Part shown: one piece after another, positions 19,457 through 23,646 of the stretch | How positions within the stretch are numbered: the stretch's first letter is position 1 | How the letters are laid out: each line of letters opens with the position of its first letter | The notes under the pieces: model-generated | Seen by the model: only the letters and a program-made list of their open reading frames with translations | Database searches by the model: none | What the model was told of the DNA's origin: nothing | Position numbers and translations under genes: made by a program | Origin: Ephemerocybe angulata | Taxonomy: Eukaryota; Basidiomycota; Agaricomycetes; Agaricales; Psathyrellaceae | Reading direction: 5' to 3' | DNA: 64,000 nucleotides | Assembly: GCA_013368325.1 (NCBI GenBank) | Contig: JAACJK010000113.1 | Span: 558,001 to 622,000, forward strand

Positions 19457-21642
19457 ATGTCTTCAAACGATCCCAACGACATCGAAGATGCATACGCCAG
19501 AGGAATGACAAAACGGATTTTGTGGAAGTTGGACTCCAATATCCTCCCCCCATTGGCACTTGTAAGTACTTCCAGGTGTCCACTTTTCTCTGATATGAAA
19601 GTTGTCTCGAAGCTTTGGCTCGCCAATTTCATCGACAGGAGCAACATCGGCAACGCCAGGATTGCGGGTCTGGAGAAGGATACTCACTTAGTAGGGAATC
19701 AGTTCAATGTCCTCCTGACCCGTAAGCACCTCTTCTCGTCGGGTGTTGCCAATTAATGTTTTCCGTTGGTCCAGTCTTCTATGTCACGTATGTCACTACC
19801 CCACGTTAGGCCCTCTAATGCATGTGTCGCTAACTCTATATATAGGTACGTCCTCGTGGAAGTACCGTCCAACATTGTATTGAAGAAGATGCAACCCAAT
19901 GTGAGCAAGGCCTCGTGTTTGCCCTTCAAGACCACAAGTGTTCACTCGGCTGCAGAGATGGATTCCCCTTCTAGTATTCCTTTGGGGAATTGTCACTATC
20001 TTGACGTGTGTGGTGAGCACTTCCGACCATAACCATACTTCTCTTGGGAAACTCTAACTTGAAGGGGCCATACTATTAGGTGAAAGATTTCAAGGACCTG
20101 GTCATCATCAGGCTCTTTTTGGGCATCTGTGAAGGCGGCCTTCTTCCAGGACTAGTGGGTCCTTTCAATACTCTTACGCCTCTGCCTGGTAAGTTCATCG
20201 ACATTCGAGGTTTTGTACTTGAGTACCCTGTACAAGAAGCATGAGCTACAACTCCGGTAAGTCGACGGCATTCGGGTTGTGGCAAAATATCGATTGATTT
20301 GCACTTCCATCCAGAGTCGGTATCTTCTACGCGTCCGGTAAGCTAACGTAGTTGTAACCCCTATCCACCTGCTTACCTTAGAACTGATAGCCTCATTATC
20401 CGGTGCATTTGGAGGTAGGCGATCTCAGGCGCTTGCCCTCTATGATCTTCCCTGTTCTCACACGAGGCCAACCCAGGACTGCTTGCTTCTGCGATTCTAA
20501 AAATGGATGGGCTTGCCAATGTACCTGGTTGGAAGTGGATTTTTGTGAGTCTTGTGTTTCGTTAGTCTGACACCCACTGCGAAAATGTTGACTAACGAAT
20601 CCTACTTATGGATTGAAGATTTTGGAAGGAATGGCCACCGTAGTGATTGCTGGCATCGCGTTTCTCATTTTACCCAAGGATCTCGCATCCGCGAAGTTCT
20701 TGACCCCGGAGGAGCGCACTTTCGCAGGTAACAACACTTAAACCGTTGAGAGAGTGAGGGCGTACCTGATTGGAATTTGGCTGTCAGTTGAGCGATTTAG
20801 ACGCGGCAACATCAACCTCGTCGTATCACGCGCAGGCACAGTCCGAGAGGACAACCTTCCGGGGTCTGGCAATGCGTTTGACGCGGAGAAGAGCGAGAGT
20901 GTGTCTGTCCGAGAGGCCACATCGATCGATCCTTTGGCGGTTGAAGAAGAGGAGCACTTTGAATGGAGAGAAGTTTGGCGAGGTATGTGCCTATCTTGAA
21001 CACTCATTCGTGCTGCATGTAACAACCTTTGCCTTTGTGTAGGAATCACCGACATACAAACGTGGCTCACTGGTATCGCTTACTTTGGGCTTGTCGTGGG
21101 TCTATACTCGTATTCCCTCTTTCTGTGAGTGACCACAACGGCTCGATCTTGGTGGTGCGACTCACCAATGGATAGACCGACAATCATTGCCGGACTTGGA
21201 TACTCTGGCATTCAAGCTCAGCTTAGAACAGGTGTGCATATTCTAACTAGACGATCTTGATTGCTAATCCTATCCACAGTCCCGCCTTACGTTCCGGCTG
21301 CAGTAATGACAGGTCTCATTTTCTTTGGCTCGGAGCCCGAAACCTATCTAATCTACATCCGTACAGTTGTTGTGGCAATATATAGCGACAGGTTGAAGTG
21401 GCGTGGGCCCTTCATCCTTATGTGCTTGCCTTTCTCCATCATTGGTATGTTGACGCTATCAAAGCTTTTATAGACGCCCAGGTTTCTGATTAGGCGCCTT
21501 AGGCTACATCATCGCCATTACGGCGACAACCAACAAAGCTCGTTACGTCGCTGTGTTCTTCATGTCGGTCGGAGTGTAAGTGAGAGGCTATACACCCCTG
21601 TGTTCAACTTTCTAACAGAAAGGCTACTGGCAGATACCCATC

Positions 21643-21680
21643 CATCAGGAAAAGGCCCGACCCGTGTGGGGCGTGTGGCA
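21643..21680 (+). repeat. Left terminal inverted repeat of the element
   Basis: It reads CATCAGGAAAAGGCC, then CGACCCGTG, then GGGCGTG. It matches the complement of the right end at most positions through about 35-40 bp. Confidence 0.75.
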
Positions 21681-22245
21681 CGGCCATCACGGGTGCACGA
21701 TCACCGTGCACCCACAAGGTATTAGCGTCTTGATCACAATCAGATTCGTGGGCCCACGGCGCCTCACGGCGCTCGTGGCTGCACGAAACGCAGTTCTCCA
21801 CGCCTTGCACGCTTCGTCCACGCCCGCCCCACGGTCAGTTCACGCTTTGAATTTCTTTAAATTCCATAGATGATAGGTAGAAAAAAGTATTCATTCAATT
21901 GTTCTATACGACAGACTAAGATACATCTACGTAGCAAGCCATCGGCAGTAACTCTAATCTACCCTAAGGCGCTTTAAGCTAAGCTATCCGCGGCCAGTGC
22001 GGCTCCGGCCTTGGTCAGCCTCTCCTCCACCGTGCTTGCTGTTGCTGCAGCCACCCGAAGGGGCCAGGTCGCGGGAGCCTCATGTAGTAGGCCTTGGGCA
22101 TCAAAACTTGGAGGTCAGGGCGGACAGTCGACACACTAGGATAGGAAAAGACCGCTCAGTAGTTAGTTTCAGGGCAAAAAGAGACACGAACCTTTGTACA
22201 GTTGGATCGGGGACGGAACGTAGGCTCGGGGGGAAAGAACGCAAG

Positions 22246-22640
22246 TTAAATATGCTGGGGAGGTTGAACGGGCTGATAAGATAGTAGGTAAGCGCAAATG
22301 AAGCATCGATCGCATGAAAAACATACCTGTCGCATTTCCATCGGCTGACGGTCGAACATGAAGACGGAAAGGGGCTGTGATTGTGAGGTGCCTAAGTGAC
22401 GTGCCAAGGGAAGCGAGGTAGAGGGCTTACAGACACTAGGTCTCACCCATCGGCGTAAGTAGAGAGCAGAGGAGGGACGACGGAAAGCCAAGGAGCGTTG
22501 GAGAAGGGGATGATGATGGTGGAAGCCAAGCCAGGAAGCGTCGTCGGAGCCCCACGAAAATTTGAGCGCATCACGTGTGCGCGCTTCATCAATCGGAGTT
22601 TGAACGAACTTGGGGAGATTCGGAATTGGAACTCGGAGGA
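22246..22640 (-). CDS. Possible small spliced gene carried by the element
   Basis: On the minus strand, reading frames join across plausible GT-AG introns: LLQRSLAFRRPSSALYLRRW, intron GTGAGA...ACAG, then PLSVFMFDRQPMEMRQ, intron GTATGT...TCAG, then PVQPPQHI and a stop near 22246. No start codon could be fixed and no domain is recognised. It is not transposase-like. It could be captured host sequence or chance. Confidence 0.25.
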
Positions 22641-23031
22641 TCGTGCCTGTTACCCGGCGTATAGCTATATAGTTGAAAATACACATACTTTTTTGTGAAG
22701 ACAGGATTAGCATTGCTACGTGGAAGAACATACATACATACATCAACAATGAAAAGGCACACTTGAGATTAGATATGAACCTTTTCAGACCCAGGACGCG
22801 AAGATTCGGAAGAATCCTGGCAACTCACATACATTCCTCTCAATTCACCGTGTTATGTAGCCATCATGGCTGCTGTGCTCTTGGGAAGCCACTGGCCCAC
22901 ATCCAAGAATTCAAATCCGTGCAGGTGTGAAGCCGTGCAGTGATCACCGAACGTGTGGAAGCGTCTGGGCGCGTGTGATGGCGTGCGCAGGCGTGGCGGT
23001 GTTAGCTCCACGATCAGACGCGCCTGACACG

Positions 23032-23069
23032 GGCCCCACGCTCTGCACGGCTCAGGCCTTTTGCTGATG
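23032..23069 (-). repeat. Right terminal inverted repeat of the element
   Basis: Read inward on the minus strand it is CATCAGCAAAAGGCC, then TGAGCCGTG, then AGAGCGTGGGG. It differs from the left end by scattered single substitutions only. Confidence 0.75.
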
Positions 23070-23646
23070 TCGGCACCATGCATACTGTAATTGGTCAAAG
23101 ATACGAAGGAGCATTGGTCACTAGCACTGACCAGTTTCCAGATCTATACTCCCCAATAATAGCAGTGGGCACTATAAGAAGGCCACCACTACCGCCCTGC
23201 AACTGGCGATCGCAAACACTGGGTACGTCGATCACGAGGAACCGTTGGGGTATGCAGTTGGCTGAACGCGCATCACAGAGGCTTCGTCGCGACTTTCGCC
23301 TACACCCCCGGTAAGGACGATCGCACCTAGTCAGCGTGATTATAGAGTGAGATCTGAGGCTTACATCTCCAGACCAACGTCCCAAATATATTCGCGGACA
23401 CACGATATCTCTTGCATTTGTTTCGCTTGCCTGGTTCCTCGTCGCATGCAATGTGTAAGTTTTTTGTCACAGATTGAAGATTTTGATTAAGTCTCAATTC
23501 GCAGGGCATATTGTATGTGGGAGAACAAAGCTAGGAGGGAAGGAAGGCGCCAAGGCAATATCACAAAGTACGAACATCTGAAGGCAACCGGGAAAACACG
23601 AGCGCCAATTGGAGACAGGCACCCCGACTTCATCCTTACGTTGTAG

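Follow-up and report, generated by a model that had tools for sequence, protein, structure and literature searches.

Transposons of the PlavakaB type are described as ending in CATCA..TGATG and as producing target site duplications (TSDs) of 2 or 3 bp (Kojima 2025, PMC12730594, available part). The same portion of that paper places Transib and RAG1 in the same wider clade as Plavaka, and its text on PlavakaB (CMCT clade) makes no mention of scarred ends. Among the matches listed from the open-licence PMC literature there was no mechanistic study of Plavaka transposons, and in the accessible part of PMC9674265 the sole Plavaka-related event is a deletion that does not resemble an excision.

The window, that is, the whole 64-kb stretch of DNA analysed (genome contig C143, positions 558001-622000), carries an element of 1427 bp on the + strand at 21643..23069. 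It starts CATCAGGAAAAGGCC and finishes GGCCTTTTGCTGATG, with CATCAG..CTGATG as termini, and a TC dinucleotide read from the sequence stands on either side (left copy 21641..21642, right copy 23070..23071). The same ends are found in the full-length copies C214 and C117a. These borders and flanks are exactly those given in the preliminary description. Alignment of both ends confirmed that the terminal inverted repeats are imperfect and located them at 21643..21682 (+, CATCAGGAAAAGGCC...) and 23030..23069 (-, reading inward CATCAGCAAAAGGCC...). The subterminal zones proved to be loaded with CGTG/CACG, as had been claimed: 15 motifs were counted in the first 200 bp (21643..21842) and 10 in the last 200 bp (22870..23069), against at most 6 per 200-bp window (step 50) elsewhere in the analysed stretch. 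An internal block at 22500..22622 is common to other subfamilies at 76-89% identity (blastn; element positions 849-980, varying by pair). The subfamilies carrying this block of about 120 bp otherwise resemble the window element at the ends only, and the block found no match in the transposase-bearing 6498-bp element described below.

Stop-to-stop frames in the window element reach 192 aa at most, and a genome search with PF18759 gave no match inside the element among the matches listed. It is called non-autonomous because no Plavaka transposase lies in the element itself. As a control for over-reading, 15-bp inverted ends with at least 14 matches, a 2-bp duplication and a spacing of 300-3000 bp were counted. 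Such pairs were not beyond chance in 64 kb, with 1 in the window and 0 or 1 in each of eight crude pair-block shuffles. The element is judged real on account of its family, namely 54 genome matches and full-length copies with the same end bases.

The insertion lies in an MFS transporter gene at 19700..23646 (+), with the stop codon at 23644-23646 and the start upstream of 19700. The split exon spans 21634..23086 (+), as read from the sequence and in agreement with the Ephemerocybe angulata protein P0121; when empty it measures 24 nt (21634-21642 plus 23072-23086). Taking out 21643-23069 together with one TC rejoins GVYPS|APCIL, followed by an intron and then SILPNN. Both the precise restoration of the frame and the broader proposal of a recent inverted-repeat element with a 2-bp duplication inside an MFS gene are borne out. 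The rejoined partial host protein was recognised as MFS_1, and the NCBIfam models closest to the orthologue P0121, which score below cut-off, describe transporters of the D-galactonate type. A Pfam scan of the read-through of the genomic host stretch found no domain, presumably because of the introns. Translation of the disrupted gene runs 29 codons into the element and then meets a stop; judging from the sequence, the insertion probably breaks the transporter.

P0121 reads YPSAPCILSILPNN, unbroken across the insertion site. P0161, from a metagenomic contig, reads YPS followed by 29 residues and a stop, which is the window's own translation into the element, and it is identical to P0121 at 399 of 404 residues upstream of the site. 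The isolate from which it came may be the same as that of the window. An uninterrupted motif of the GVYPS|APCIL..SILPNN type was present in 115 of the 120 best homologues listed, and P0161, with the same insertion, is among the five outside the motif expression. The unbroken and filled proteins, their close identity and the conserved motif together point to a recent insertion that at least one close lineage does not have. The empty allele suggested earlier as a check was thus recovered in part: P0121 reads through the site at the protein level, and a search of this assembly for a second, empty copy of the host gene found none.

Further copies, which the preliminary description had proposed to look for, were readily detected: a genome search with the window element returned 54 matching stretches, and two full-length copies share its end bases at 95.9% (C214) and 84.4% (C117a) identity. 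Both ends of 21 independent insertions, 42 ends in all, were surveyed. This set excludes C222, whose flanks are the same as those of C105b; C50, C150 and C189, of which one end is seen (canonical CATCAG); and two old C16 fragments with the ends CACCAG and CATTAG, which are single substitutions with no scar. Two CGTCAG pattern matches (C86, C115) also stand outside the survey. The C16 fragments (L033 2774-2787 and L040 1131-1144) have the flanking sequence GACGTCTGAGG in common.

Canonical CATCAG was found at 36 of the 42 ends, and an exact 2-bp TSD at the strict border in 17 of the 21 insertions (chance 0.064 per insertion). With C185 omitted and C196, C117L and C121L taken with a shifted border, the duplications of 20 insertions were TG (6), TC (3), CA (3), TA (3), CG (2), GG (1), CC (1) and TT (1). 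Pyrimidine-purine dinucleotides account for 14/20 against a background of 0.23 (binomial P 1.1e-5). The eight different dinucleotides rule out TC-specific targeting, and TC is not supported as a signature of the element. Differing borders or duplications had been named in advance as evidence against the element; the borders agree between copies, and the duplications elsewhere are mostly not TC. TA, the duplication made by Tc1/mariner transposons, accounts for 3/20 insertions, and the window has TC; that group does not fit.

The youngest burst comprises seven 1762-bp copies identical over the aligned 1759-1762 bp and the two near-identical 6498-bp copies described below. These copies point to very recent activity. 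The window subfamily is older than this burst, given its identities to C214 and C117a. Copy C98 (L011 1359-8245) is a 1.4-kb sister of the window element grown to 6.9 kb. It was rejected as a transposase source, being a 1.4-kb element with a nested insert and a reverse-transcriptase-like frame. The nested insert, C98n, is a 1366-bp CATCAGGAAAAAGC-ended element with a GG duplication that elsewhere has otherwise just a 38-bp match; the frame, of 1302 aa, was judged by eye to resemble a reverse transcriptase of the non-LTR kind with RNase H.

A longer copy with the same ends and a transposase, the other relative that was to be looked for, is represented by a 6498-bp element with CATCAG-type ends, present in two copies (C117L and C121L) identical over 6497 bp. 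It contains two divergent genes, for a Plavaka transposase and a DUF6532 protein. A model of the transposase gene with eight GT-AG introns yields a protein of 978 aa that matches PF18759 over its full length (1-325 of 325, E 3.9e-118) and is 97% identical to E. angulata P0001; the two gene models disagree at a few splice sites. No solved structure related in sequence to P0001 was found up to E 1. The second gene (L029 4346-6731, +) encodes an acidic DUF6532 protein that has close relatives in both E. angulata and Candolleomyces; the E. angulata DUF6532 protein at 94% identity is encoded on a contig equal in length to the one that carries P0001. Pfam found no TET/JBP domain in the tested transposase frames, and none is listed for the second protein. 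In Candolleomyces efflorescens the relatives of both genes have neighbouring gene numbers (g2812, g2813), and the pair therefore appears to travel together. The window element matches the 6498-bp element at the ends only (about 95 bp at 83% and 78 bp at 77%), which rules out an origin by simple internal deletion. The genome holds many further Plavaka stretches, with at least 122 matching PF18759.

The window element is a known kind of transposon in a recent insertion. Very probably it is a non-autonomous cut-and-paste transposon of the PlavakaB type, recently inserted in E. angulata or a very close relative. The earlier view that it matches no familiar superfamily is not upheld, as PlavakaB fits with CATCA..TGATG and a TSD of 2 or 3 bp (PMC12730594, available part): the window ends are CATCAG..CTGATG, the TSD is TC/TC, and PF18759 is found in the same-ended long element. 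It differs from PlavakaB in that the window element is without a transposase and the long element carries a DUF6532 gene. An origin in another superfamily, such as canonical CACTA/EnSpm or hAT, is highly improbable. Members of the clade to which Plavaka is assigned do have CA..TG termini and TSDs of 2 to 5 bp in common (PMC12730594, same portion), and the nested C98n has three matching flank bases, but the CATCAG ends, the 2-bp TSD and PF18759 in the long element speak against such an origin, and no element of the same subfamily with another transposase was seen. CACTA/EnSpm elements have CAC..GTG termini and a 3-bp TSD, and hAT and Zisupton elements an 8-bp TSD (PMC12730594, same portion). 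Here the ends are CATCAG, a third matching flank base occurs in C98n only, of 21, and the flanks of the 21 insertions match over 2 bp, one over 3.

The window element carries nothing but ends, subterminal zones rich in CGTG/CACG and filler with no recognised gene, and a Plavaka transposase supplied in trans would move it. The 6498-bp element is the nearest transposase-bearing relative found and may be the mover of the window subfamily. Insertion duplicated 2 bp of target, TC here and variable elsewhere, with a pyrimidine-purine preference.

The six non-canonical ends of the survey belong to five copies: one each in C185, C196, C223 and C117L, and both in C121L. Read from outside inward, all six have the form XY-C-rc(XY) abutting the element core, where XY is the flanking dinucleotide; the pentamers are TTCAA, TGCCA, GACTC, TGCCA, TACTA and TACTA. 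Pentamers of this form make up 1.4% of window positions. In C196, C117L, C223 and C121L, XY is the dinucleotide duplicated at the opposite end. In C223 the AT of the core is lost, and C185 fits only if the duplication is TT and one T is missing at the other end. The odd ends sit in copies otherwise identical to canonical ones, and by age they occur in 5/10 young and 0/11 older insertions (P 0.012, post hoc). The 42 ends, from one genome, in which the pattern came to light also served to test it. When other Plavaka families were tried for scars, L051 gave one weak end pair and L052 none. The homology border near 4055 in L052 turned out to be a truncation. L052 4053-7001, about 2.95 kb long, recurs on many contigs with an identity of about 100%; in several cases it lies some 9-13 kb from where the contig starts, and it is possibly a subtelomeric repeat.

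We favour, with a probability of roughly 0.6, the reading that PlavakaB cuts through hairpins on the flanks, with a nick one base inside the element, and that abortive excision leaves scars that lock the end. The non-transferred strand would be nicked after the first base of the element (C|ATCAG), and the freed 3' end would attack the opposite strand at the element/flank border. The resulting flank hairpin would read XY-C-rc(XY) with C as a one-base loop; opened off-centre and rejoined to the element, it would give the ends observed. The 3' G of the element would stay complete after these cuts, as it must for normal insertion. Had the hairpin formed exactly at the border, ends of the form XY-rc(XY)-CATCAG would be expected, and these are not observed. 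In favour of this reading, all six odd ends fit XY-C-rc(XY) against a background of 1.4%, the copies that bear them match canonical ones in all other respects, and XY equals the opposite-end duplication in four copies (C196, C117L, C223 and C121L). Flank hairpins and V(D)J-like footprints have been described for Ds (PMC1978519, available part). Against it stand the discovery of the pattern in the same data that test it, in one genome, and the imperfect fits, C185 needing TT and a missing T and C223 being without AT. A scarred end should no longer be cut and would accumulate in an active family, which could explain why scars occur in the active set; yet dead ends would be expected to survive in old copies too, and none of the 11 older insertions shows one.

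An origin of the scars at integration, with faulty gap repair or template switching copying the 2-bp target overhang in inverted form, seems unlikely. It would also yield bases related to the duplication, and one-sided scars would come naturally from it, but it does not by itself predict either the element's first base at the centre of the palindrome or scars at both ends of C121L. Still less likely is an origin of the extra bases in the target itself, through imprecise joining or chance palindromic targets. The target of C121L does form a palindrome (CCC TA GGG), but all six ends fit where 1.4% is expected. C121L also lies in a Gypsy-type frame (named by eye), and in the related Gypsy-type copy L055, with 74% identity over 243 bp, GCTCTGGGCATA takes the place of the GCCCTAGGGATC seen in the joined flanks of C121L; the C121L target was therefore probably without the extra bases. 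The absence of extra bases from L055 counts for flank hairpins and against a target origin, although this copy is just 74% identical and has TG, not TA, at the codon.

The insertion in the transporter gene is itself ordinary; it leads to a Plavaka system recently active in E. angulata or a close relative, of which ten young copies are at hand for comparison. If the scars do derive from hairpins, they predict to the base how Plavaka cuts DNA, in a form that can be tested in vitro, and young, otherwise identical copies would record a cutting intermediate of the clade that contains Transib and RAG1.

Ac/Ds and the other hAT transposons, which make an 8-bp TSD and use another family of transposase, offer the first comparison. 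There, too, flank hairpins are opened and rejoined, leaving V(D)J-like footprints (PMC1978519, available part). Cleavage in Ac/Ds falls at the flanking nucleotide (PMC1978519, same part), whereas in the Plavaka copies it would fall one base inside the element. Transib and RAG1, the latter in V(D)J recombination, offer the second: they likewise form flank hairpins and leave open-and-shut joints, with the nick at the signal border and a 5-bp TSD. The PlavakaB scars, if they are hairpin products, would in contrast imply a one-base loop taken from the element, and would bring a large group of fungal transposons within the reach of V(D)J-like chemistry.
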